Source of the DNA: a virus
IMG/VR virus record: IMGVR_UViG_3300035307_000002
Span: 1 to 24,880 of that record
Length of the DNA stretch: 24,880 nt
Strand: one strand, 5' to 3'
Shown here: piece after piece, positions 5,546-24,880 of the stretch
Position numbering within the stretch: position 1 is the stretch's first letter
Layout: each line of letters starts with the position of its first letter
Position numbers and translations under genes: made by a program
The notes under the pieces: model-generated
Seen by the model: the letters and a program-made list of their open reading frames with translations, nothing else
The model's database searches: none
What the model was told of the DNA's origin: nothing

Positions 5546-5962
5546 ATGGCAAACACCAGCACGAAGAAGAGCTACGGCGGGGTAAAGGCCCCGGTGGCGG
5601 GCAATGTGGGGCCGTCCCGCACTGCCGTGGTCCCCAATCAACCCGGAGCGAGCGCGGGACAAATGTCCGGCAAGGGTCAGCCGTTCGGCGAGCCAATGAA
5701 TGACGGAGCACCGGCAGCTATCAAGGGCCTTTCTGGGACGCACAACGACATCGGCGAGATGTCGGGGTTCATCACGGACGGGTACCTGGACAAGCAACGC
5801 ACCCCCTACGGGGAAGCCGCCAAGTTCAATTTCCTGCCCCCCGGCATGGAGATTGACAACCAGGAAAACGCCGAGATCAACATGATGCCCCTTCGCATCC
5901 TGGTCGCGGAGTCCTACCCTGGCGACGGGTGGAGCCCCGCGCCACGGGATGTCCCGGAGTAA
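5546..5962 (+). CDS. small virion-type protein with FNFLPPGMEI motif (copy A)
   Basis: The product has 138 residues and starts at ATG 5546, preceded by a strong AGGAGAAGGA. The N-terminal half is Gly/Pro/Ser/Ala-rich and probably disordered. The C-terminal half contains KFNFLPPGMEIDNQE (about 93-107), followed by MMPLRILVAESYPGDGW. The same 15-residue motif with one Asp/Glu change recurs in the protein at 10258-10623, so the two are probably paralogs or share a docking peptide. It is the last gene before the terminator, so it closes the capsid transcription segment. The function is unknown; a minor capsid or fiber-attachment role is conjecture. Confidence 0.65.
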   Translation: MANTSTKKSYGGVKAPVAGNVGPSRTAVVPNQPGASAGQMSGKGQPFGEPMNDGAPAAIKGLSGTHNDIGEMSGFITDGYLDKQRTPYGEAAKFNFLPPGMEIDNQENAEINMMPLRILVAESYPGDGWSPAPRDVPE

Positions 5963-6471: not shown

Positions 6472-7845
6472 ATGGCCTATACATTCAACCCCCTAACGGG
6501 GAAATTCGACTACTATCAGCCCAGTACGGGCACCCCTGGGCCGACTGGTCCGGCGGGGCCTGCGGGAGCCGTCGGCTTCGGAATGGATGGCGAGGACGGT
6601 GCTGACGGCTGGTCTATCCCAGGACCACGCGGTCAGCCTGCGACTCCAGGTGCGACGTCTTACGGCGAGATGGTAATTGAGAACGGGGTTACTGGCCTCG
6701 TTCTTACAACGATCAACGTATTCTATCAAATCACTGCTGGCTGGGCCGCTGGTGATTTGAATGGCGTCACCTATGCCTCTGGTGCGCTTACTGTTCAGAA
6801 TTCCGGGGCGTACTTTATGACGGCTTCGGTGTCGTTGAACAGTACGTCCTCAAACCAGATCTACAGTATTCAGATATTCCAGAATGGTGTGGCCATTCCT
6901 GGTCACGACGCTGAAATAAAGCTAACCAACAATACAGACGTCAATTCTTTGACTATCGCCGGTCTTAGAACTACTGTCAATGCCGGAGACGTGTTCACTC
7001 TATGGGCACAGAACCAGTCCAGCGGTGGACAGACCCTGTTGGTGACGGATGCCAACTTCTCTATCTTCGCAGTGTCTGGGGCCACTGGAGCCACGGGCGC
7101 CAGTGGCAGCACTGGGCCAGACGGGCAGGACGGGGAGGACGCTTGGTTCGGCCCGCAGGGTAACCAAGGCATACAGGGAATTCCGGGAACGAATGGCCTG
7201 ACCGTTGTCGGTCAGGATGGACAGGACGGCGAGGACGCGTGGCTAGGGCCTCAGGGGAATCAGGGCGTGCCGGGCACCCCTGGCTCTTCTGGCATCAATG
7301 GCTTGACTGGCGCAGTTGGCCAGGATGGCCAAGATGGAGAGGACGCGTGGTTCGGCCCACAGGGTAACCCAGGTGTCAATGGCATCATTGGCGTAAACGG
7401 AGCGACGGGCGCAGTTGGCCAGGACGGCCAGGATGGTGAGGACGCATGGTTCGGCCCACAGGGTAACCCAGGTGTCAATGGTACTATTGGCGTCAATGGA
7501 GCGATGGGCTCCCCTGGCCAGGACGGCCAGGATGGAGAAGAGGGCTCCATCTGGCTGGTGACCCCTCCGTCCACTGGCGGCGCGGGCGTGCCAGCCACCA
7601 CGGTAGTCAGCGGCACCACACCTGGGCTATCCCCAATAGTCGGCGTGCTGACGAGCTATGCCCGGGAAGACCATAGCCACGGCACACCCGCTGCGGGTGC
7701 CAGCGGACCGTGGACCATCGTACAGAATAGTACTCTGGTGACGGACACGCTTACGGTTACGGCAGGGTATCAGTTCCTTTGCGGCAGAACGTTCAATAAT
7801 GTGGGCGCAATCATTAACAACGGTGACTTCATAATCACTCACTGA
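6472..7845 (+). CDS. collagen-like fiber protein with C1q-like domain
   Basis: The product has 457 residues and starts at ATG 6472. An anchor-like N-terminus, AYTFNPLTGKFDYY, is followed by Gly-X-Y repeats (about 20-62). Residues about 64-201 look like a C1q/TNF-type jelly roll, with FYQITAGWAAGDLNG and GAYFMTASVSLNS strands. A second, longer collagen-like region follows (about 203-358), built from repeats of GQDGQDGEDAWFGPQGNxG. The C-terminus contains a SYAREDHSHGTP motif common in phage fibers and a final beta-rich segment. Collagen-like stretches form trimeric rods; C1q-like heads bind proteins or glycans. This fits a trimeric head or tail fiber exposed on the virion. The acidic QDGQDGED units differ from classic proline-rich collagen. 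Confidence 0.85.
   Translation: MAYTFNPLTGKFDYYQPSTGTPGPTGPAGPAGAVGFGMDGEDGADGWSIPGPRGQPATPGATSYGEMVIENGVTGLVLTTINVFYQITAGWAAGDLNGVTYASGALTVQNSGAYFMTASVSLNSTSSNQIYSIQIFQNGVAIPGHDAEIKLTNNTDVNSLTIAGLRTTVNAGDVFTLWAQNQSSGGQTLLVTDANFSIFAVSGATGATGASGSTGPDGQDGEDAWFGPQGNQGIQGIPGTNGLTVVGQDGQDGEDAWLGPQGNQGVPGTPGSSGINGLTGAVGQDGQDGEDAWFGPQGNPGVNGIIGVNGATGAVGQDGQDGEDAWFGPQGNPGVNGTIGVNGAMGSPGQDGQDGEEGSIWLVTPPSTGGAGVPATTVVSGTTPGLSPIVGVLTSYAREDHSHGTPAAGASGPWTIVQNSTLVTDTLTVTAGYQFLCGRTFNNVGAIINNGDFIITH
7114..7545 (+). repeat. tandem collagen-like repeat array (units of about 96-108 nt)
   Basis: Four units and a partial fifth start at 7114, 7210, 7318, 7417 and 7516, with lengths of 96, 108, 99 and 99 nt. Units 3 and 4 match at about 85 of 99 positions by my count, including an identical 35-nt core (7348-7382 and 7447-7481). 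The repeat keeps frame and encodes G(Q/P)DGQDGEDAW(F/L)GPQGN. Such near-identity favours recombination and length variation of the fiber, and could also cause assembly collapse. Confidence 0.9.
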
Positions 7846-10257: not shown

Positions 10258-10623
10258 ATGCATCCACTGCAAGAGAAGTTCCAGATCACCGTCCCCGCCA
10301 AGGAAGAAAAGGGCGAGGCTTGGGCGTCAGCGAAGAGCCAACGACACTTGAACGGCGCGGAGGAGGGCTGCGAAAAGTTCAACTTCCTGCCCCCAGGCAT
10401 GGAAATCGAAAACCAGGAACGGTCTCGCCAGGATAACATGGCGCTGAGCGTGGCTGGTGAGAGCGACGTGTCGGCCGACACGAATCCGGACTCGTTCCGT
10501 GACGGATTCAAGAAGCGTACCATGAAGGGCAGCGACGATCAGTACACCGGAGAACACGTTGATCACTTCTACGGCGACGCGGGTGGCTTCGCGGAGCGGA
10601 ACAACTACCTCGACCGAGAGTAA
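10258..10623 (+). CDS. small virion-type protein with FNFLPPGMEI motif (copy B)
   Basis: The product has 121 residues and starts at ATG 10258 after a strong AAGGAG. It is hydrophilic. Residues about 39-53 read KFNFLPPGMEIENQE, matching the protein at 5546-5962 except for one Asp/Glu exchange. The flanks differ: copy B continues with an acidic segment (ESDVSADTNPDSF) and then GEHVDHFYGDAGGFAERNNYLDRE. The conserved peptide in otherwise dissimilar proteins is best explained as a shared binding site on a common virion partner, or as the core of a diverged gene duplication. No known family is recognised. Confidence 0.65.
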   Translation: MHPLQEKFQITVPAKEEKGEAWASAKSQRHLNGAEEGCEKFNFLPPGMEIENQERSRQDNMALSVAGESDVSADTNPDSFRDGFKKRTMKGSDDQYTGEHVDHFYGDAGGFAERNNYLDRE

Positions 10624-11806: not shown

Positions 11807-13333
11807 ATGGTTTGGAAACGTGAAGATCCGTACATTGCGGAAAGCAAGAAAATCGTCTGGGAAGTAGCCCCGTACCTGCGCGGCAGGGGGGTCGACATCG
11901 GAGCTGGCGACTTCCGAGTCATGCCTCACGCTATGACTGTGGACAACTGGAACCATGCCCAGTTCGGGTTCACCCAGAAGCCTGACATCTTGGCAGAGGG
12001 CACTGACATCAGTATCCTCAGTAGCCAGACGATGGACTTCGTGTACAGCAGCCACACGCTGGAGCATATCGAGGATACAGCCAAGGCACTGAAGGAGTGG
12101 TGGCGGCTGGTCAAGGTGGGTGGGTACTTGGTCCTGTACCTCCCCCACGGGGACTTCTATCCCAAGGTGGGGGAGGACGGTGCCAACCCCGACCACAAGG
12201 TCAATCTCTGGCCCAAAACAATCATTGATGCCATGCCCGCTGGATGGGACTTAGTGGAGAACCAAGAGCGCAACGGCGGCAACGAGTACAGTTTCCTCCA
12301 AGTGTTTAAGAAGGTGAACGGCACTAGGAGAACAGAGTCGTGGAAGACCCCCAAGCCAGAGAAGACGGCTTGCGTGGTCAGATACGGAGCTTATGGAGAC
12401 ATGATGCAGGCCACCTCGGTGTGGGCCGCGCTGAAGAAGGAGGGTTATCATGTCACGGTTTTTGCTAGTCTTCCTGGGGCTAGTGTTATCGAGCATGATC
12501 CTAACATTGATCGACTGGTTCTGTTCGATAAAGACCAAGTTCCGAACGGCAATCTGCTGGATTTTTGGACGTGGCAGAAGAAGAAATTCGACCGATGGGT
12601 CAACCTGAGCGAGACGGTAGAGGGTACCCTGCTGGCCATGCCGGGGCGAACGCTCCACTGGTTCAATAAGGACGTCCGCCACTCGCTGATGAACCGGAAC
12701 TACGTGGAGTTTCAGCACCACGTGGCGGGGCTGGCGTATAGCAAACCCGAGGACATGCAGATCAAGTTCTACGCTACCGCCGTTGAGAAGGAAGAGGCGA
12801 TCAAGTTCAAGAAGAAGCAGGGTGGCGGCAAGCTAATCATGTGGTCGCTAGCTGGCAGTGCAGTCCACAAGACTTGGGCGGGCCTCGATAACGTGATGGC
12901 AGCTATCCTGCTGGAGTACCCAGACTGCCACATTATCCTTGTGGGTGGGGCAGAGTGTAAGGTGCTGGAGGCTGGATGGGAAAATGAGCCCAGAGTGATC
13001 AAAAGATCCGGCGTATGGACCATGCGGCAGACATTGTCTGTCCTGCCGCACTGTGATCTCATTATTGGCCCCGAGACAGGCGTGCTAAACGCCGCCGCGT
13101 GCATGCCAGTGCCCAAGGTTTGCATTTTAAGCCACTCTACGACGGAGAATCTGACGCGGGACTGGACTAATTGCACCCCGGTGTTCACCAAAGTCACCCC
13201 CTGCTACCCGTGCCACATGCTACACTATGGCTTCGAGCACTGTCATCAGGATAAAGAGTCTGGAACGGCTCAGTGCCAAGTGGACATCCCAATCTCTGAT
13301 GTGGTGGGCGCCGCTATGGAGTACCTGAAATGA
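11807..13333 (+). CDS. methyltransferase-GT9 glycosyltransferase fusion
   Basis: The product has 508 residues and starts at ATG 11807. Residues 1-~180 are a class I SAM methyltransferase: motif I GVDIGAGDFRV (about 28-38), SSHTLEHIED, then LKEWWRLVKVGGYLVLYLPHGD, as in Methyltransf_11 proteins. From about 185 a second domain begins, KTACVVRYGAYGDMMQATSVW, the N-terminal signature of GT9 (ADP-heptose/LPS heptosyltransferase-like) enzymes. The GT9 donor-site region is GPETGVLNAAACMPVPKVCIL (starting about 421). In classical members this is (D/E)(S/T)GxxHxAAA, so His is replaced by Asn here. A cysteine-rich tail (CYPCHML...HCHQ...QCQVDI) also matches GT9 C-termini. The domain order suggests glycan transfer coupled to methylation. 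Its stop overlaps the next start (ATGA), so it belongs to the late operon. Confidence 0.85.
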   Translation: MVWKREDPYIAESKKIVWEVAPYLRGRGVDIGAGDFRVMPHAMTVDNWNHAQFGFTQKPDILAEGTDISILSSQTMDFVYSSHTLEHIEDTAKALKEWWRLVKVGGYLVLYLPHGDFYPKVGEDGANPDHKVNLWPKTIIDAMPAGWDLVENQERNGGNEYSFLQVFKKVNGTRRTESWKTPKPEKTACVVRYGAYGDMMQATSVWAALKKEGYHVTVFASLPGASVIEHDPNIDRLVLFDKDQVPNGNLLDFWTWQKKKFDRWVNLSETVEGTLLAMPGRTLHWFNKDVRHSLMNRNYVEFQHHVAGLAYSKPEDMQIKFYATAVEKEEAIKFKKKQGGGKLIMWSLAGSAVHKTWAGLDNVMAAILLEYPDCHIILVGGAECKVLEAGWENEPRVIKRSGVWTMRQTLSVLPHCDLIIGPETGVLNAAACMPVPKVCILSHSTTENLTRDWTNCTPVFTKVTPCYPCHMLHYGFEHCHQDKESGTAQCQVDIPISDVVGAAMEYLK

Positions 13334-15745: not shown

Positions 15746-16147
15746 GTGTCTTTTAGCCCGCCCCCAGTAAACGCCGACATCGGCAAGGACACCCCGCTCG
15801 GTGCTGGGTGGCTGCGGTGGATTAACGAACTGTGGGCTACGGTCATTGTGGCGCAGGGGGTGGTGGAGTATTACGCCCCAGGGGCTACGGGGTTCACGCA
15901 CACCATAGCGGACAATACGACCCTCCTCGTAATGCAGCCGGGGGGTGCCTACGCCACGGGTACGCTGACGCTCCCTGCGTCCCCTGCGGACGGCAACAGG
16001 GTGGCCATCAGCACTACTCAGGCAGTGACTGCGATTACCATTAGCGCATCCCACACGATTAACAATGCCCCCACGACGTTAGCGGCTGGACAGGGGTTTG
16101 CCCTAGTGTATCTCGCCGCTAATACAGCATGGTATCGTGTGTATTGA
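15746..16147 (+). CDS. small virion protein with fiber-type beta domain
   Basis: The product has 133 residues and starts at GTG 15746. A short N-terminal helix region (GWLRWINELWATVIVAQGVVEYY) precedes a beta-rich domain: TLLVMQPGGAYATGTLTLPASPADGNRVAISTTQAVTAITIS, ending FALVYLAANTAWYRVY. I recall this domain pattern from small proteins that follow tail-stabilisation genes in podovirus-like phages and from fiber proteins. It probably attaches to the tail hub. The biochemical role is unknown. Confidence 0.7.
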   Translation: MSFSPPPVNADIGKDTPLGAGWLRWINELWATVIVAQGVVEYYAPGATGFTHTIADNTTLLVMQPGGAYATGTLTLPASPADGNRVAISTTQAVTAITISASHTINNAPTTLAAGQGFALVYLAANTAWYRVY

Positions 16148-16167
16148 CGTGCTACACTGCCAAGGGT

Positions 16168-16590
16168 ATGGAACTCACCTCTTCTGAACTGAGAAATAAG
16201 GTCTGCGTTCTACAGTCGCAGATGATTCAGTTTCCCCAATTGGAGTTGGAGACGTTCCATTTCTGGGCCGACGGCATGTACGCCAGGATGATTCCTAGAC
16301 CCGCTGGAACGTTGATTGTGGGTAAGGTTCACAAGAAGGAACACTTCTACATTGTGATGAGCGGGAGAGTTCAGGTCACTACTGAACGGGGCTTAGAGGA
16401 CATCACGGCGCCAGCGGTAGTCGTATCGCAGCCGGGGACTAAGCGGGCCGTTCTGGCCCTTGAAGACAGTGTGTGCATGACCGTACACCGAGCAGAAGGC
16501 AAGACGATGGAGGAGATTGAGGAGGAACTGGTAGAACCAGATCCCTTGTCTCTGTTCGGCCCAGGCAATGCATTAAAGGAACTGACATGA
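16168..16590 (+). CDS. cupin-fold protein
   Basis: From ATG 16168 the product has 140 residues. An upstream in-frame ATG at 16129 lies inside the previous gene and lacks a Shine-Dalgarno, so the shorter form is preferred with moderate confidence. The single cupin core is visible: GTLIVGKVHKKEHFYIVMSG (about 48-66) with His55 and His59, then APAVVVSQPGTKRAVLALED and a final CMTVH with His107. These give a plausible metal site. Similar cupins occur in structural operons of many phages; whether they bind a ligand or are part of the virion is not settled to my knowledge. The 3' end overlaps the ejection-protein start by 4 nt. Confidence 0.75.
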   Translation: MELTSSELRNKVCVLQSQMIQFPQLELETFHFWADGMYARMIPRPAGTLIVGKVHKKEHFYIVMSGRVQVTTERGLEDITAPAVVVSQPGTKRAVLALEDSVCMTVHRAEGKTMEEIEEELVEPDPLSLFGPGNALKELT

Positions 16591-17486
16591 GCTTCATTGG
16601 TGCAGCGATAGGCGCGGTTGCCTCGATTGGTGGTGGTCTGTTGGCTCGGAGAGGAGCTAGCAAGGCGGCGCATGAGCAGCAGGACGCCTCAAAGGCGGCG
16701 GCAGCGGCCAATGCCGCTGAACGTAAGCCGTGGACCGATGCTGCCAAGGCTGTTCTGCCACAGTTGCAGGCGGGGGTTACGGCGGGTGGGCAATTCAACA
16801 AGCCGTTTACGATGGCAGACGCCGCCAATGCCCCAGCCATGCAGTTCGCACTCCAGCAGGGTCAAGAAGCCATTGGCAACACGGCTGCTGCCAAGGGCGG
16901 TCTGCTGAGTGGCAACGCCGTCGCGGATGCCACCAAGTTTGCAGAGGGCACCGCTGCGCAGTTCGAAAACCAAGCGTTCAATCAGAACATGGCCCAGAAT
17001 CAGTTGGCGCTGGGCGGTATGGAGTCCCTTAGCCAATCAGCCATCTCCACGGGGGTTAACCCGACGGCTGATGCCAATGCCAATGCCATTCTGGCATCCG
17101 GCGGCGCTCAGGCGGCGGGTACAGTCGCAGGAACAAACGCGATGACTCAAGGATTGTCCGGCGCGGCGAACGCTCTGGACAGAGGGGGCGCGTTTGACGC
17201 CCTGGGCAAGATCTTTGGTGGCGGTGACACGACAGCGTCGCCTGATGTCGGCAGCTATTCCTCAATCCCAGGCGCGGGGGTGGACTACTCTGACAAGCGA
17301 CTGAAGGAAGACATGGAACTGGTGGGGCACACCCACGACGGACTCCCAATCTACGTCTACCGCATGAAGAGCGGTGGACCCAAGAAGATGGGTGTCATGG
17401 CGCAGGATGTTGAGAAGGTGAACCCAGGTGCTGTTACCCAGGATCGCCAAGGGTACAAGATGGTTGACTACTCACGGGTGAGTTAA
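16587..17486 (+). CDS. DNA-ejection protein with C-terminal S74-type chaperone module
   Basis: The product has 299 residues and starts at ATG 16587, overlapping the cupin stop, with AAAGGA upstream. The N-terminus SFIGAAIGAVASIGGGLLA is glycine/alanine-rich and hydrophobic, as in ejection proteins that enter membranes. An Ala/Gln/Asn-rich helical body follows. From residue 235 comes SDKRLKEDMELVG, with HTHDGLPIYVYRM and GVMAQDVEKVNPGAV: the Peptidase_S74 / endosialidase intramolecular chaperone signature. Ser235 and Lys240 are spaced as in the known Ser-Lys dyad that releases the chaperone after trimerisation. Cleavage there would remove about 65 residues. The module is shorter than in tailspikes, so it may lack the long C-terminal helices. 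Confidence 0.8.
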   Translation: MSFIGAAIGAVASIGGGLLARRGASKAAHEQQDASKAAAAANAAERKPWTDAAKAVLPQLQAGVTAGGQFNKPFTMADAANAPAMQFALQQGQEAIGNTAAAKGGLLSGNAVADATKFAEGTAAQFENQAFNQNMAQNQLALGGMESLSQSAISTGVNPTADANANAILASGGAQAAGTVAGTNAMTQGLSGAANALDRGGAFDALGKIFGGGDTTASPDVGSYSSIPGAGVDYSDKRLKEDMELVGHTHDGLPIYVYRMKSGGPKKMGVMAQDVEKVNPGAVTQDRQGYKMVDYSRVS

Positions 17487-17487
17487 C

Positions 17488-19254
17488 ATGCCAGTTGACT
17501 TCAATCTCCTCAATTCCGATCAATTGCCGATGAAGGTTAAGCCCTTCGAGCCGATTGACGCCGTTGGCAACATGGAGGCCCGCTACACCCTGGCGGGCAA
17601 GGCCACTGACGTCAACGAGAAGATACGCGCACAGAAGGAAGCTGAGGCAGACCGGGCTGTTTTGTCTGAGGCCATGAAGACCCCGGACTTCAGCCTTGCC
17701 ACGCCCGACGGTGCGGCTAAGAGCGTGGAGTCTCTAAAGGGCAGGGTCAGCCCAGGCATGTTCATGAATCTGGAAAACCACGTCAACTCGTTGCGGACGG
17801 CTGACGTTAAGATGAAGGAAGCCACATCCCGCATGACTACCGAGGCAGTGGCTGCTAAAGCGGCCCAGACGGCACAGGGCGTCGAAGGGCTTCTACAATT
17901 AGAGGCCCGGTATGCTGACACAGCTAAGTCCAAGGGGCAGGTTCAGGCTGATGCAGATTTTGAGCAGGCCAAGCAACAACTCGCCCAACAACAGCAGGGA
18001 AATCCCGAGTTCGTAGCTAACTTGGCGAACATCAATCCACGTAACCTGCATGACTCCATCGCGGCCAGTAAGCACGGCGCTGACCACTATGCGAGGACTG
18101 CGCAGACTCGTCTGGAGGAAGAGAAGGCCAAGGCCCTCGCAGACCCGCAGAAGTGGAAGGCATATGTGGGGACAGATGGGGCGAACTACGAGGCGAACAT
18201 AGCCACGAATATGTGGCGGCAAGTCAATCCCGACGGCACTAGGACCGAGGTTCCTGGTGGTGCTCCACCGGGGGTGGTGGCCGTGGGCAGCGCGCAGCAG
18301 CAGAAAGCCGCTGCGCTGAAGGAAGCAGATCAGTACAAGCTCAATCCTGAGCAATCTGCATGGTACGCGGGCTGGGCGCAGTCGTACGGCAAGCCCCTGC
18401 CCGGTATCCCAGCCGGAGCGGGGAATACCGCAGCGCGGATGCACTACATTCAGTCGTACACGCAGCTTGCCATAGATAAGGGGTACAGCCCCGAAGAGGC
18501 GGCAACTAAGAACCTAGAGCGAGACGCGTCTCGGCTGGCACTTGCCAACCTGAAGAAACAGAATACCAATCTTGTGATGTCAGAAACCGAGCTCAGTACT
18601 CTGTTTAAGAACATGCAAGCGGAGGTTGACAAAATTGGCGGGGTACAGTCACCCGCCCTGCGGTCTGCCTGGAACACCGCAATGACACAGTTCGTTGGCA
18701 GCGACAAATTCAGTGAACTGAACATTGACTCCGCAGCGGCGACTGAAATCATTGGCCGAGTAGCATCCAACAACACGGGCGCGGCAGGCACGGCGGTCAA
18801 CTTCCTAAAGCTGGCGCAGGGGATGATCAACGGCAACATGAATGCTGATCAGGTCAAGGCTGCGAACTCCGCATTTGAAAAGTTGGTCAAGGCTAGACAC
18901 GAAGGTGTGACCGCAGCAGAGAAGCAGCTTTTAGAGGCTGGCCGGATGGACGCCAAGCCGGGATCCAAGGCCGCAGAAGGCGCTAGCGACGACAGCAAGG
19001 TGTCCCCAGCTACTCAGGCTGATCGGGACAAGGACCGAGTGAAAATCGTGCGTGACGAGTATGACAAGGCAGTGGCGGCAGTAAAGTCTGCCCCCACCCC
19101 CGAGGCTCGTGAGCGTGCCCTGGGGGATGCACGGGCATCCCGCGCAGAGCTCAAGAGACTGAAGGTAGATGTTCCGGAGCCTGGGGTGTCCATTGCAGGT
19201 CCTAAGGAAGTGACCAGCAAGAGCGGAAAGAAGTTCACTGTAACGGTGGAATAG
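17488..19254 (+). CDS. putative DNA-ejection (internal virion) protein
   Basis: The product has 588 residues and starts at ATG 17488, 1 nt after the upstream stop. It is highly polar, rich in Ala, Gln, Lys and Glu, and predicted almost entirely helical with coiled-coil stretches (for example FEQAKQQLAQQQQGNPEF and RLEEEKAKALADPQKW). There is no signal or membrane segment. The short C-terminal tail ITS-type end, SKSGKKFTVTVE, is beta-like. Size, composition and position between the first and third ejection-type genes match the three-protein ejection sets of P22-like phages (gp7, gp20, gp16 analogues). No enzyme motif is visible. Confidence 0.7.
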   Translation: MPVDFNLLNSDQLPMKVKPFEPIDAVGNMEARYTLAGKATDVNEKIRAQKEAEADRAVLSEAMKTPDFSLATPDGAAKSVESLKGRVSPGMFMNLENHVNSLRTADVKMKEATSRMTTEAVAAKAAQTAQGVEGLLQLEARYADTAKSKGQVQADADFEQAKQQLAQQQQGNPEFVANLANINPRNLHDSIAASKHGADHYARTAQTRLEEEKAKALADPQKWKAYVGTDGANYEANIATNMWRQVNPDGTRTEVPGGAPPGVVAVGSAQQQKAAALKEADQYKLNPEQSAWYAGWAQSYGKPLPGIPAGAGNTAARMHYIQSYTQLAIDKGYSPEEAATKNLERDASRLALANLKKQNTNLVMSETELSTLFKNMQAEVDKIGGVQSPALRSAWNTAMTQFVGSDKFSELNIDSAAATEIIGRVASNNTGAAGTAVNFLKLAQGMINGNMNADQVKAANSAFEKLVKARHEGVTAAEKQLLEAGRMDAKPGSKAAEGASDDSKVSPATQADRDKDRVKIVRDEYDKAVAAVKSAPTPEARERALGDARASRAELKRLKVDVPEPGVSIAGPKEVTSKSGKKFTVTVE

Positions 19255-19255
19255 C

Positions 19256-20932
19256 ATGCCCACGTACTCTGTCAAAGTCGGTGAAAAGACTCACAAGATT
19301 GAATCTGAGCAGTCGCTTTCCGACGCCGACATTTCCGAGTATGTAGACAGTCTCCCTGCCGGTGGTGAGCCCGCCCCCAAGCTAGGCCCCAGACGCGCCA
19401 CTCCCGGCTCCACCGAGGCTCCTGCCAAGCTACCGCAGACCGCCGGAGAGTACGCCACAGCCATAAAGCGCGGTCTACTGGGCGTTGGCGACACCGCACT
19501 TACGATGGCGGGCGGCATGGCGCGGGACGTCGCGGGGTCCTACGCTGGGCTGTACAAGGGCATCACCCAGGGGCGAGACGCTGCTGGGATGGCCCGAGCC
19601 AAGGAAGCCTGGACTAGCGGCGGCGGCGCGTCCACCCCTGAGGGTGAAAAGGGCGTGCAGGCCGTCGCATTCCCGATGCAGGAGGCGCAGAAAGTGTCCG
19701 GCGCAGCGGGGGAAGCTGCCGGGGGCCTGATTGGGGAGCCACAGAAGGGCCGCGTGCTGGGCGAGTTGTTGCCCGAAGCCGCCGCCTATGCCGGAGGACT
19801 GAAGCAACTATCCATGGCCAAGGGCGCGATGAAGGCTGGTGCTCCACTATCCCAGGCTCGTGAAGAGATTTCCGCTGCCCAGCGCAACGGCTTCCGCGCT
19901 GACCCAGCCGAGGCCAACCCCACTCTTAAGAATCAGATGCTTGAGGGGATGGCTGATCGTAGGCGAGTTCAGGATAAGATTGCTACTCATAATCAAGAGG
20001 TTGCAGCCGACCACATCCGCACGGACCTGGGTCTGCCGAAGGATGCCCGCATTGACCTTCCCACCCTTGAGGGTATCAGGCTCAAGGCTGGCAAGCCCTA
20101 TGAGGACATCAAGAACCTCAAGATGGACATCTCGGTCAACGATCCCACTTACCAAGCTGCGATAGCAAATCTTGACAAGGGGTTCGAGTCCATGAAGGAG
20201 TTCACCCCCGAGCTCTACAACCAGCCGAAGCTGGAGCGGGCACGGGGTGCGCTGGCACAGTCAGCCAGCCCAGGGCACCCCGAGGCATTCACCCCCAAGG
20301 CCATCCTGGAGATTTCCCAACGGCTGCGTGAAAAGGCATCGTTCGTGCTGAAGCAAGAGCGACCTGACCACGATGTGTTTCTGGAGGCCAAGGCGCTGAA
20401 GGAAGGCGCTACCGCGATGGAGGACTTGCTGGAGCGCCACCTGACGGCTGCTGGGTCTCCGCGCATGGTCAAAGAGTTCCGTGACGCACGGGAACTGATT
20501 GCGAAGACGTACGACGTTGAGGCCGCTACCAATCTTACGTCAGGTGCCATCGACCCGCAGGTTCTGCGCCGTATGTCCGAGAAGGGGCAGAAGCTCAGTG
20601 GCGGTCTGGAGAAGATTGCCCACGCTGCCTCCGCCATGCCCAACGTGATGAAGAGCGTTGAGCACTTAGACACCAGCTACGGCCCCCACATTGGGGACTG
20701 GGGCGCCGCAGCCCTTGCAGGCGGCGCGGCAGCTATGGGGCACCCTGCCCTACTGGCGGGCGCACTGGCCCGCCCAGCGGCCCGCGCAGCGGCATCGAGC
20801 GGGGCGTATCAAGCCTTAGCGGGGCAGGTAAAGCCTAACAAGCCCCGACAACAGTACAAGATGAAGGAAGTGGCCCGTGGCCTAGGTGCTGTGCAGCAGG
20901 CGACTCAACAAGATGAAACTCCTAATAATTGA
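19256..20932 (+). CDS. putative DNA-ejection (internal virion) protein
   Basis: The product has 558 residues and starts at ATG 19256, 1 nt after the upstream stop. A short N-terminal unit, YSVKVGEKTHKIESEQSLSDADISEYV, is typical of large phage virion proteins. A Gly/Ala-rich segment (about 75-170) with TAIKRGLLGVGDTALTMAGGMARDVAGSYAG follows, then a charged helical middle. A very Ala-rich near-C-terminal segment (WGAAALAGGAAAMGHPALLAGALA, about 478-501) could insert into a membrane. It is the third of three consecutive ejection-type proteins. Its last 20 nt overlap the start of the ATP-grasp gene. Confidence 0.7.
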   Translation: MPTYSVKVGEKTHKIESEQSLSDADISEYVDSLPAGGEPAPKLGPRRATPGSTEAPAKLPQTAGEYATAIKRGLLGVGDTALTMAGGMARDVAGSYAGLYKGITQGRDAAGMARAKEAWTSGGGASTPEGEKGVQAVAFPMQEAQKVSGAAGEAAGGLIGEPQKGRVLGELLPEAAAYAGGLKQLSMAKGAMKAGAPLSQAREEISAAQRNGFRADPAEANPTLKNQMLEGMADRRRVQDKIATHNQEVAADHIRTDLGLPKDARIDLPTLEGIRLKAGKPYEDIKNLKMDISVNDPTYQAAIANLDKGFESMKEFTPELYNQPKLERARGALAQSASPGHPEAFTPKAILEISQRLREKASFVLKQERPDHDVFLEAKALKEGATAMEDLLERHLTAAGSPRMVKEFRDARELIAKTYDVEAATNLTSGAIDPQVLRRMSEKGQKLSGGLEKIAHAASAMPNVMKSVEHLDTSYGPHIGDWGAAALAGGAAAMGHPALLAGALARPAARAAASSGAYQALAGQVKPNKPRQQYKMKEVARGLGAVQQATQQDETPNN

Positions 20933-22226
20933 TCAGGATGGGGTTGGCCTGTCGTTCGCTCTCAGGGCGAACGAGGCTGGGCATGCTGTGCGGTGGTTCG
21001 TCAAGCCTAAGCCGACGAACAGTAAGGACATCGGCAAGGGCTTCAAGGGCATTGAAAAGGTTGACAATTGGGTGACCCACGCTGGGTGGGCAGACCTAAT
21101 TTTCAGCACGTCGAACGACGACTACATCGATCGGCTGTCCTTCTTCGCCAAGAAGGGATACCCCGTGTTCGCCCCCTCTCCAGAGAGCGCGAAGTTGGAG
21201 ATCTCCCGCAAAGATGGGATGAAGTTGCTGGATTCTGTCGGCATTGAGTGCGTGCCGTACAAGACGTTCCCCAACATGAAGGCCGCTGAGGCGCACGTTA
21301 TCAAGACTGACGAGCGGTTCGTGTTCAAGACTCTGGGTGACAATGAGGACAAGGCACTGACCTACGTGTCTAAGTCCCCTGCCGACCTTGTGGCCTGGAT
21401 GCGCCGCACCCCACCCCCTAAGGGAGAGGTGATGCTACAGACGTTCGTCAAGGGCATTGAGATGGGCGTGTCCCGCTGGATGGGCAGTAAGGGCTGGGTG
21501 GGGCAGTGGAACGAGTCGTTTGAGCACAAAAAGCTGATGCCTGGGAACTACGGACCCAACACTGGCGAGATGGGCACCATTGCCTACTTCACCAAGAAGT
21601 CCAAGCTAGGCGACGAAACCCTGGCCAAGTGCGCCGACAAGTTGATGGCGCTGGGCCACCGTGGGGACACCGCTCTGGGCTTCATGATTGATGATAAGGG
21701 CAAGCCCTGGCCCACCGAGTGGACGTGCCGCCCAGGCTGGCCAATCTTCAACATGATGCTCGGTGCCACCAAGGGCGATCCAGTAGAATGGATGCGCGAT
21801 GCCTTGGGCGGCAAAGACACTACCTCCTTTTCGGAGGACATCGGGTGCTGCCTCGTGCTCGCCACGGGGGACTTTCCGCATGGCAACTTGACGAAGCAAG
21901 AGGTCGCGGGTATCCCCATCTACGGCGTGACGCGGGGCACGCGGCAGCACATCCACCCCCAGGGGGTTCAGCTAATGAAGCTCCCCGACTCAGGCAAGGA
22001 AGGCAAGGGCGTAGTGGAGCGCGAAATGTGGGCCACCAGCGGAGACTACGTGGCAGTGATCAATGGCTTCGGCAATAGTGTGAGCCAAGCGACTAAGCGG
22101 GCATACAGCACGATAGAGAAGTTGCATCTGGCCAACCCCATTGTCCGAGATGACATTGGCGAAACGCTCAAGAAGCAACTGCCAGAACTCCACGCTATGG
22201 GGTATGCTGCGGCATGCGCCTATTAA
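20913..22226 (+). CDS. PurD-like ATP-grasp ligase
   Basis: From ATG 20913 the product has 437 residues, close to cellular PurD (about 420-430). An upstream in-frame ATG at 20886 would add nine residues of poor character. The N-terminal alpha/beta domain begins MKLLIIDQDGVGLSFALRA. ATP-grasp features follow: KDGMKLLDSVGIECVPY, FVFKTLGDNEDKAL, VMLQTFVKGIEMGV, and GPNTGEMGT (214-222), which parallels the GPNTGGMG signature of glycinamide ribonucleotide synthetase. The metal site PTEWTCRPGWP has Glu269 and Arg273, but Thr271 replaces the usual Asn of E-x-N. It may therefore form an amide or peptide-like bond on another substrate. It sits among virion genes, not nucleotide genes. Confidence 0.78.
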   Translation: MKLLIIDQDGVGLSFALRANEAGHAVRWFVKPKPTNSKDIGKGFKGIEKVDNWVTHAGWADLIFSTSNDDYIDRLSFFAKKGYPVFAPSPESAKLEISRKDGMKLLDSVGIECVPYKTFPNMKAAEAHVIKTDERFVFKTLGDNEDKALTYVSKSPADLVAWMRRTPPPKGEVMLQTFVKGIEMGVSRWMGSKGWVGQWNESFEHKKLMPGNYGPNTGEMGTIAYFTKKSKLGDETLAKCADKLMALGHRGDTALGFMIDDKGKPWPTEWTCRPGWPIFNMMLGATKGDPVEWMRDALGGKDTTSFSEDIGCCLVLATGDFPHGNLTKQEVAGIPIYGVTRGTRQHIHPQGVQLMKLPDSGKEGKGVVEREMWATSGDYVAVINGFGNSVSQATKRAYSTIEKLHLANPIVRDDIGETLKKQLPELHAMGYAAACAY

Positions 22227-22235
22227 GGAACTAAG

Positions 22236-23228
22236 ATGTCTGTCTACCTATCCTCTGTATTCGGCGCTGGCGCGCAACTGTTCAGTAATCAGGGGGTGGT
22301 GCTGGCTGGTGGTAAGATCAATACGTACCTTGCTGGTACGACGACCCCCGCCACCACGTACACCACATCGGCCGGTAACGTGCCGAACTCCAACCCAATC
22401 GTGTTGGACTCGGCTGGTCGAGTGACGACAGCCATCTGGCTGACTGGCGGGGTGTCGTATAAGTTCATAGTTACTGATTCCGTCGGTGGCAGTGTAGGCC
22501 CCACGCTTGACAATATCTCTGGCGTGGGGGATCCCGGCCTCGGTGGCGGTCTGGCTCAGTGGCTCAGTTCTGGGTTTACCCCAGCATACAGCACGGGCTC
22601 ACAGTTCACAACGGTGGGGGACAGCACTAGCGTATTCACGGCGGGCAGGCGGCTTAAGAGCTCGGTTACGGCTGGTACAGCGTACAGCACGGTCATCTCC
22701 TCAACATTTGGAGCGGGATCTACGACAGTTGTTGTGGGGAACGACAGCACCCCACTGGATTCAGGAATGTCGGCCGTTCAGGTGGGGATAATCACCGCAT
22801 TGTCCGGATCAGGAACGATAGCGTTGCCATACAGACCGGCGTTCTATTTTACGACCGCTGCAACTATCACCGCCCCATCAACTAATGGCACGTTCACCAC
22901 TTATAGTGTCCAGTGGTACGACACTCTGGGTAACTTCAACAATACCACGGGTACCTTCACGGCTACGATTCCGGGAATTTACCTGTTCGTGGCGCGAGTC
23001 ACGTACATCAACGGGTCTGCGAATCAGGGTACTTTTTCTCTCAATGCTGGCAGCTATGGCAATCGTGTTGCGTCGCCCAACCCCACAGTCGCATCAACTC
23101 AATATGAGATGGTGACTACGGTCTTGGCTAAGATGCAGGCGGGAGAGGGGGCGTCTGTCATCTATCAAGTGGGGGCGGGCACTCCGACAGCGATCTGCTC
23201 TTCATTCGGTGGCCTCTTAGTGGGGTAG
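22236..23228 (+). CDS. tail fiber protein with C-terminal C1q-like domain
   Basis: The product has 330 residues and starts at ATG 22236, with AAGGAAC upstream. Residues 12-95 (LFSNQGVVLAGGKINTYLAGTTTPATTY...NPIVLDSAGRV...YKFIVTDSVG) form a widespread phage fiber N-terminal domain. Residues about 105-187 (WLSSGFTPAYSTGSQFTTVGDSTSVFTAGRRLKSSVTAG) match a second common fiber unit. Residues about 200-330 look like a C1q/TNF jelly roll (PAFYFTTAATI, FNNTTGTFTATIPGIYLFVARVTYI), probably the receptor-binding head. It is likely trimeric. It differs from the collagen-like protein at 6472 in lacking Gly-X-Y repeats. Confidence 0.82.
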   Translation: MSVYLSSVFGAGAQLFSNQGVVLAGGKINTYLAGTTTPATTYTTSAGNVPNSNPIVLDSAGRVTTAIWLTGGVSYKFIVTDSVGGSVGPTLDNISGVGDPGLGGGLAQWLSSGFTPAYSTGSQFTTVGDSTSVFTAGRRLKSSVTAGTAYSTVISSTFGAGSTTVVVGNDSTPLDSGMSAVQVGIITALSGSGTIALPYRPAFYFTTAATITAPSTNGTFTTYSVQWYDTLGNFNNTTGTFTATIPGIYLFVARVTYINGSANQGTFSLNAGSYGNRVASPNPTVASTQYEMVTTVLAKMQAGEGASVIYQVGAGTPTAICSSFGGLLVG

Positions 23229-23234
23229 TGTGAC

Positions 23235-23465
23235 ATGGTAGAAGAATTTAGCGCCCGAGATTTCGGCCGCCTGGAGGCCGAAGTGGAAGGATTGACGGAT
23301 ATGGTCAAGGCACAAGGCGTCAAGATTGACGCTCAAGGTGTGAAGATTGACCATCTGCTTGAACTCGCAGCCCGCAGTAAGGGGGCCAACACCGTACTGA
23401 TTTCCTTGGCCAGCATAGCCGGTGCGCTCATGTCGTGGATGGTAGATCACCTAGTACATAGGTAG
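23235..23465 (+). CDS. small coiled-coil membrane protein, holin/XhlA-like
   Basis: The frame encodes 76 residues from ATG 23235. Residues about 10-45 form a charged amphipathic coiled coil containing an exact duplication, AQGVKID AQGVKID (26-39). One hydrophobic segment follows at about 52-70 (NTVLISLASIAGALMSWMV), and the tail is short (DHLVHR). This layout is that of XhlA-type lysis accessory or single-span holin-like proteins, which permeabilise or anchor to the inner membrane late in infection. No endolysin or second holin gene adjoins it, so the lysis call is tentative. An ejection or tail-anchoring membrane role is an alternative. Confidence 0.6.
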   Translation: MVEEFSARDFGRLEAEVEGLTDMVKAQGVKIDAQGVKIDHLLELAARSKGANTVLISLASIAGALMSWMVDHLVHR

Positions 23466-23471
23466 GACACC

Positions 23472-24880
23472 GTGCCCGGTGCATACCTAGACCCCGAAAC
23501 CCCCAAGTACCCGATGGCGTCTTGGCTGGGGGAGAAGGCGCTGCCCGCCGTAAGTGAATTCATGTCTAAGCCGTTCGGTTACGACAACCCCCCAGGCCGA
23601 ATGATGGCCGAAGCGTTTGTTGGCCCCGTGGCCCGCACAGCTACGCGCATCGGTTACGGTGAAGACCCCGTAACCGAGGGCACAGGGCAGACTCGTCGTA
23701 TCCGTGAAGACGTGCTGAACCTCCCCAACCCACTGAAGGGCCTGGGCGCTGGCAAGGCGATGTTCATGGGCATCAGGGCTCTGAATACAGATAAGCGTGC
23801 GTTGGCGCTGGCTCAGAAGATGGAGGCGGCTGGGCACGACCCGGAGAAGATCTGGACAGACACTGGGTTCTTTAAATCTCCCGACGGGCACTGGAAATGG
23901 GAAGCTACCGACCACAACACTGCGTTCAAGGGCATTGACGAGTTAAAGAAGCAGAGGCAGTTTGAATTCGACAAGATAAAGACTATTGAGGACGCCCAGG
24001 TCATACAGCACTTTACGGGTAAGGGGCTGCCACTCCTACAAGCTACTGAGGAAGCCGAGAGGTATCTGGGGCACTCCGTTTCTAATCAGTCTCACCAATA
24101 CGCCATGAATTATTCTGGTCAAGAGCTGATTGATCGTTACCACGACTATAATAACAAGATATGGAAGGACCCGCTGCGTTCTGATCTGAATACGATGATG
24201 CCTCACGTCGGGTTGGCGAACAACTACCCCGATATGAAATATATGGGGGTCAGGCTTGAGGATCAGGAAGAGGGGGTTGCGGGTAGTTTCCATGCGGGGT
24301 TGGCGGGCACCCCCGGCACAGTAACAATGAGGCATGAGTATGTGCTCCCCAATGGCGACGGCGCCCCCTATGGCCGCAGCCACGTATTGCACGAGTTGCA
24401 GCACGCCGTGGCTGCGGCGGAGGGTCACGACCCAGGTGCGAATGTCGCACACACGTATAAACAGAGGAATGCGAAGGCCAATGAATACATGCAGCTACAG
24501 GACAACTTTCTGACCACAAGAGCAGCCCTGGGCGTTATGAAAGAGAACCCGGGCATGACCCCGGAGATCGCGCTTAAGGAAATCATTGACTCAGCGAACC
24601 ACTACGGCAGGGCACCCACCGCCAGTGACCGGGAAATCATACTGAGGATGCTGGGTGATCCTAAGAATTACCCAGAGGATAGGTTGGCCGCTTACGCCAG
24701 TGCAGCTAGGGGCACTGCTCAGAATCACGGGATGATCACTAGAGATCAAGGATTAGAGCTCTACAGGAAAAACATCGGGGAGACCGAGGCGCGTGCCACC
24801 CAGAAGCGCATGGACATGACCCCGGACCAGCGCCGCGCCCGCTTCCCCATGAAGGACTACGATCCAGGTCCGTACTATAC
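23472..24880 (+). CDS. large polyvalent virion protein with HELQH metallopeptidase domain (3' end missing)
   Basis: The frame is open from GTG 23472 (7 nt after the previous stop, GTAGGAC upstream) to the right edge, at least 469 codons. The N-terminal 75 residues are basic/neutral and unrecognised. TGFFKSPDGHWKWEATD (about 129-145) and a LNTMMPHVGLANNYPDMKYMGV segment match parts of phage large polyvalent proteins. Residues 307-311 are HELQH, with Glu317 at HExxHxxxxxE spacing and an upstream YVLPNGDGAPYGRSHVL. ETEARATQKRMDMTPDQRRARFP near the edge is a typical end of that domain. These proteins are huge multidomain factors thought to be injected with DNA; the zinc-protease domain could cleave host or virion proteins. 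Confidence 0.8.
   Translation, partial: MPGAYLDPETPKYPMASWLGEKALPAVSEFMSKPFGYDNPPGRMMAEAFVGPVARTATRIGYGEDPVTEGTGQTRRIREDVLNLPNPLKGLGAGKAMFMGIRALNTDKRALALAQKMEAAGHDPEKIWTDTGFFKSPDGHWKWEATDHNTAFKGIDELKKQRQFEFDKIKTIEDAQVIQHFTGKGLPLLQATEEAERYLGHSVSNQSHQYAMNYSGQELIDRYHDYNNKIWKDPLRSDLNTMMPHVGLANNYPDMKYMGVRLEDQEEGVAGSFHAGLAGTPGTVTMRHEYVLPNGDGAPYGRSHVLHELQHAVAAAEGHDPGANVAHTYKQRNAKANEYMQLQDNFLTTRAALGVMKENPGMTPEIALKEIIDSANHYGRAPTASDREIILRMLGDPKNYPEDRLAAYASAARGTAQNHGMITRDQGLELYRKNIGETEARATQKRMDMTPDQRRARFPMKDYDPGPYY

Follow-up and report, generated by a model that had tools for sequence, protein, structure and literature searches.

The closest described relative of the enzyme examined here is PurD, or GAR synthetase (TIGR00877; PF01071 and PF02843; structures 2yw2, 3mjf and 1gso), in which residues have been assigned to Mg (E100), ATP (K103, K143, E185, E192 and K214) and glycine (D212, R287 and E292) (PMC8880213); PRA binding to PurD itself is unresolved. 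In viral surveys, phosphoribosylamine-glycine ligase was reported as a virus-enriched purine auxiliary metabolic gene (AMG), with an enrichment of more than 2.8-fold (PMC11360552), and it is treated as a purine AMG also in PMC11097641 and PMC12043954. PurK, PurT and biotin carboxylase share the ATP-grasp core and acyl-phosphate chemistry. Phage-encoded ATP-dependent amide-bond chemistry has also been proposed for modules of phiEco32, PhiRIO-1 and PhiM6, which, in the accounts of Iyer et al. 2009 given in PMC6256558 and PMC10580990, consist of an amidoligase and a GATase.

We analyzed a window of 24,880 nt, a virus fragment from IMG/VR, that carries a PurD-like ligase gene in its late region (Table 1). 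The ligase resembles PurD in its full-length fold, domain order, ATP/acyl-phosphate residues and carboxylate Arg, but is only ~20% identical to it and differs from it at the GGREHA loop, the metal-site Asn, GDPE and GGMG, as well as in lacking the purine context and the above-cut-off score of PurD. Compared with the amidoligase modules, it is of the PurD type and has ejection, hydroxylase, GNAT and GT genes as neighbors; a Pfam scan of the proteins of the window fragment and of part of the neighbor proteins found no amidoligase (PF12224) or GATase. ATP-grasp ligase chemistry is of a known kind, while a ligase family with this signature, context and size is not described in the libraries and literature searched.

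Table 1. Positions in the window of the ligase gene, its neighbors and its active-site segments.
Feature	Position	Strand	Basis
First ejection-cassette gene; phrog_598 DNA ejection match and C-terminal Peptidase_S74 domain	16587..17486	+	Profile matches
Second ejection-cassette gene, cluster c1 (70 loci)	17488..19254	+	ORF clustering
Third ejection-cassette gene, 558 aa, cluster c9	19256..20932	+	ORF clustering
PurD-like ATP-grasp ligase, 437 aa	20913..22226	+	Profile, PDB and Foldseek matches; 91-member alignment
20-nt overlap of the ligase with the upstream ejection-cassette gene	20913..20932	+	Likely translational coupling
Residues 7-16, DQDGVGLSFA, where PurD has the GxGGREHA loop	20931..20960	+	Loop absent in alignment
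E96 (PurD E100, Mg)	21198..21200	+	Invariant in 91/91; role from PMC8880213
K139 (PurD K143, ATP)	21327..21329	+	Invariant in 91/91; role from PMC8880213
E204-H-K206 (PurD D212, glycine; K214, ATP)	21522..21530	+	E204 and K206 invariant in 91/91
GPNTGEMG loop (PurD GPNTGGMG), new E219	21552..21575	+	E219 invariant in 91/91
E269-W-T271-C-R273-P-G-W276-P-I278 (PurD E-F-N-x-R-x-G-D-P-E)	21717..21746	+	Glu and Arg kept; Asn and Asp/Glu pair replaced
C1q-domain fiber-like gene, cluster c5, downstream of the ligase	22236..23228	+	ORF clustering, domain match

Gene order around the ligase

The late region of the window reads portal, scaffold-like gene, capsid, fibers, adaptor, gp10-like closure protein, three ejection-cassette genes, ligase and fiber, an order resembling that of P22-like podoviruses. 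Across 89 ligase loci, ORF clustering recovered the order adaptor, gp10-like gene, one or more accessory slots, three ejection genes, ligase and fiber, often with a lysozyme. An earlier note on this DNA had placed the ligase between an ejection protein, which it overlaps by 20 nt, and a tail fiber, and had proposed a survey of gene neighborhoods. Both the overlap and the fiber-like C1q gene were found, and the survey revealed a conserved position: in 73 of the 83 scorable loci, the large gene directly upstream of the ligase belongs to the third-ejection-gene clusters. That upstream gene, however, has no family match of its own, and is called an ejection gene because it stands third in a cassette whose first gene matches phrog_598, and because of its equivalents in other phages.

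The ligase gene is complete, with an ATG start at 20913 that lies within the final 20 nt of the preceding 558-aa gene. Junctions of this type are common in the family, with a 4-nt overlap in 48 of 85 loci and a 20-nt overlap in 6 (54/85 together), so that expression of the ligase looks tied to that of the last ejection gene. A promoter and terminator scan of positions 16000-24000 returned no more than expected by chance, and no terminator on the + strand. Rhodoferax phage P26218, phage DSL-LC05 and MW202557 have the same module but no ligase, so the ligase is an addition to the module and not a core virion part.

Several further features were observed at these loci. The Peptidase_S74 chaperone domain on an ejection-type N-terminus (16587-17486) is an odd pairing for an ejection protein. 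Two separate small genes of the window (5546-5962 and 10258-10623) have the peptide KFNFLPPGMEI[DE]NQE in common, and a collagen-repeat fiber protein (6472-7845) contains near-identical blocks of the GPxGQDGQDGEDAW type. One locus (L071) is rearranged: the adaptor and gp10-like genes come after the ligase and fiber. The C-terminal residues of the third ejection protein are biased toward Q, K and E and were considered as a modification site; this was rejected, since the bias is explained by the ATGA stop-start overlap, in which the last codon is NNA.

Fold, active site and family

The likeness of the window protein to PurD is not due to chance. TIGR00877 matched it with E = 5e-20 and 71.7 bits, and its relatives with 65-115 bits; given the curated cut-off of 288, this model does not call the window protein PurD. 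Pfam GARS_A and GARS_C fell just under or below the cut-off in a single-sequence search, whereas PurD chains in the PDB matched with E = 1.7e-14 for the single sequence and 2.7e-37 for the family profile, the latter matching PurD chains only. An AF2 model built on 53 sequences (pLDDT 94.2, pTM 0.92) has the PurD fold and domain order: its 15 best PDB matches were all PurD (TM 0.68-0.75; Foldseek E = 4e-31), followed by PurK and biotin carboxylase with E ~1e-17. The initial assignment to PurD-type ATP-grasp enzymes, made from overall length and a single motif, therefore extends to the full fold. Family members measure ~430-468 aa, and fusion of the ligase to other domains was looked for and not seen.

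Residue roles were transferred from PurD through an alignment to the Aquifex enzyme. In 91 members, the counterparts E96, R99, K139, Q176, E183, K206, E204 and R273 are invariant, as is E269, and the fold together with invariant E96, K139, E183, K206 and E269 places the protein in the ATP-grasp superfamily. Other PurD hallmarks are replaced. The GxGGREHA loop, present in 8/8 host PurDs, is absent from the window protein and from the family alignment; the metal-site Asn (PurD N285) is T271 in 91/91 members; the GDPE acid pair (D290, E292) has become GWPx, with W276 in 88/91 and mostly A, I or Y at position 278; GGMG is a GE[MA]G-type loop in 91/91; and the glycine-rich loop GLAAGKG reads GDNEDK in the ligase. 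At the PurD glycine site, D212 is changed to E and E292 is replaced, while R287 is kept in 91/91. By comparison, PNTGGMG and E[FY]NxRxGDPE are retained in 8/8 host PurDs and in 19/19 viral canonical PurDs.

The two motifs that the earlier note had picked out, GPNTGEMG and E-W-T, lie at residues 214-221 and 269-271. Its altered metal site is real, T271 being universal in the alignment, but does not point to lost activity, as the catalytic Glu, Arg and Lys are kept; the PurD substrate residues, whose full conservation, along with complementation of a purD mutant, it would have taken as pointing to ordinary purine synthesis, proved not to be fully kept, the PurD-specific ones being replaced across the family. 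With the ATP/acyl-phosphate charges retained and the residues on the amine side replaced, the most plausible reading is a working ligase whose substrate differs from that of PurD; the protein is predicted, with high confidence, to be an active ATP-grasp ligase other than PurD.

Searches with the protein and then with its alignment recovered 421 relatives in IMG/VR viral contigs; another 6 came from species-representative genomes, among them prophages of Paraburkholderia and Rhodanobacteraceae. A PurD-derived ligase adjoining DNA-ejection genes is thus carried by hundreds of uncultivated bacterial viruses. Prophages with a family member belong to Burkholderiaceae and Lysobacterales. A member was found in 5 of 300 Burkholderiaceae genomes; in the order of the Rhodanobacteraceae host, 8 of 250 genomes have a ligase-type gene, 7 of these scoring much lower, and the low scorers whose surroundings were read are chromosomal relatives. 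Among 50,697 phage records searched by tblastn with four divergent members, the sole true relative is MW202796 (38-43% identity); the other matches were rejected, being only ~20-27% identical and in several cases annotated as PurD. MW202796 also has a small gene annotated as “ubiquitin”, a conceivable partner of the ligase. No PHROG was found for the family, and BFVD contained no close model of the ligase (best matches with TM ~0.4). With dN/dS values of 0.03-0.10, and a high dS in several pairs, the family is under strong purifying selection.

In a maximum likelihood (ML) tree, a long branch with 100/100 support sets all phage members, together with a small cellular clade, apart from the PurDs of the hosts, E. 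coli, Bacillus and Aquifex, so the phylogeny proposed at the outset separates the ligase family deeply from PurD. The root was set on PurD; recent acquisition of the ligase from a host purD finds no support in the tree. The cellular clade, made up of Lysobacterales chromosomes and a Halarchaeum plasmid, shares the GEMG/E-x-T signature with the phage ligases. These cellular proteins (such as WP_123078225, “phosphoribosylglycinamide synthetase C domain-containing protein”) lie on the same side of the tree, but are 26-33% identical, chromosomal or plasmid-borne, and have GNAT, Mur-ligase or other neighbors. GNAT genes adjoin them at three loci (L137, L139 and L140), and a bacterial cluster (L135, 5737-16742) combines Mur-ligase, PurD-like ligase, S51 peptidase, esterase and further ATP-grasp genes, forming a possible pathway for a peptide-like metabolite. 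Such neighbors suggest peptide-like chemistry.

Candidate targets of the ligase

Our leading, though tentative, reading is that the protein is an active carboxylate-amine ligase that descends from PurD, has given up the synthesis of glycinamide ribonucleotide and most likely acts on a virion or ejection protein. In the proposed mechanism, ATP would phosphorylate a carboxylate held by R273/E204, and the resulting acyl phosphate would be passed to an amine near the new E219 and W276, putative amine-side residues, to give an amide. As a product of the late operon, the enzyme would appear alongside the last ejection protein, and would most likely modify that or another virion protein. We regard a virion or late protein as the target with slightly less than even confidence; the narrower proposal, in which the ligase attaches an amine, such as an amino acid, to an ejection protein or to another protein of the virion through an acyl phosphate, in hundreds of uncultivated podovirus-like phages, is possible but more doubtful.

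The accessory genes of the ligase operons bear on this reading. An Asp/Asn hydroxylase is present in 17 of 57 ligase loci, while GNAT and cupin-like genes occur in 20/57 each, never together (0/57), and share one operon slot (16129-16590 in the window and its equivalents elsewhere; clusters c10 and c11). Late timing combined with such genes in the same operons leans toward a virion-protein target. The earlier note had offered a virion protein, a signaling molecule or a modified nucleotide as candidate substrates; the conserved position favors a target tied to virion assembly or late infection. Against it, the existence of the tail module without the ligase in other phages means that no virion protein in general needs the enzyme. 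In Pseudomonas phage PfAn1 (L179, 11001-16808), moreover, an Asp/Asn hydroxylase-like gene and an acetyltransferase stand directly before internal virion genes in the absence of a ligase, and a single obligate pathway of ligase with hydroxylase or GNAT was rejected on this ground. The PfAn1 arrangement would fit a modification theme around ejection proteins and not one pathway; as an isolated phage, PfAn1 offers an accessible system for ejection-protein modification.

The same chemistry might instead be directed at a small molecule or host surface component, such as a peptide-like metabolite or a cell-wall or LPS precursor, for example to block superinfection, the late position being one of convenient expression. 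We consider this possible, though clearly short of probable. The gene neighborhoods of the GEMG/E-x-T cellular relatives fit a small-molecule target equally well, a methyltransferase fused to a GT9-like domain (11807-13333 in the window) is present in 43 of 57 phage loci, and cell-wall modification has been proposed for amidoligase modules of other phages. The methyltransferase-GT9 gene had no tblastn match in the phage collection. However, late expression would not call for so constant a place, or for a start-stop overlap with the third ejection gene, and no cell-wall substrate gene is tied to the ligase.

Purine synthesis and remaining alternatives

A genuine PurD boosting purine synthesis as an AMG would agree with the full PurD architecture, with best matches to PurD only and with the survey annotations, yet is very unlikely. 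Besides the TIGR00877 score far under the cut-off, the signature replaced in 91/91 members and the deep separate branch, most hosts have a PurD of their own: a canonical copy (535-584 bits, TIGR00877) was found in 8 of 10 genomes checked that carry a prophage copy or chromosomal relative. The exceptions were the small G006 genome and G005, Rhodanobacteraceae ZG21-1 (L095), where the prophage ligase copy is present and TIGR00877 found no canonical PurD, which may reflect an assembly gap or a real loss. AIRS_C (PF02769, purM/purL) was detected in 0 of 36 carrier contigs compared with 11 of 19 viral contigs with canonical PurD (Fisher p = 6e-7), a contrast drawn within one collection and with many contigs being fragments, so that absence is incomplete. 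The ligase was thus not seen together with these purine genes, and no nucleotide-modifying genes were seen in the late cassette, in line with the earlier note's remark on missing nucleotide-metabolism neighbors. Residue conservation, the tree, the host PurD copies and the absent purine genes lend good support to the central proposal of that note, a ligase repurposed away from purine synthesis.

Phage DNA hypermodification exists, and PurD ancestry, with its ribonucleotide amine, could point to a nucleotide, tRNA or DNA precursor (an amide-bearing base) as the target in place of a protein. This too is highly improbable: the PurD-conserved GGREHA loop is absent, the late cassette showed no nucleotide-modifying neighbors, and annotation of the circular genome MW202796 shows only RNR and a cytosine methyltransferase. 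Least credible is a catalytically dead relative serving as a structural or ejection component, to which the fixed position beside ejection genes and the changed metal-site Asn and glycine-rich loop might be attributed, but against which stand catalytic charges invariant in 91 diverse members at ATP, Mg and substrate positions.

Overall, the sequence comparisons suggest that the ligase does not belong among purine genes and that the amide bond it forms late in infection is probably a different one. In IMG/VR, the altered family outnumbers canonical PurD by 421 to 19, a rough, pattern-based ratio. Many “purD” calls in viral surveys could be the altered ligase and be silent on purines. The family provides a testable amide ligase embedded in an ejection-protein operon, and its prophage copies in the genomes of Paraburkholderia isolates are open to deletion.
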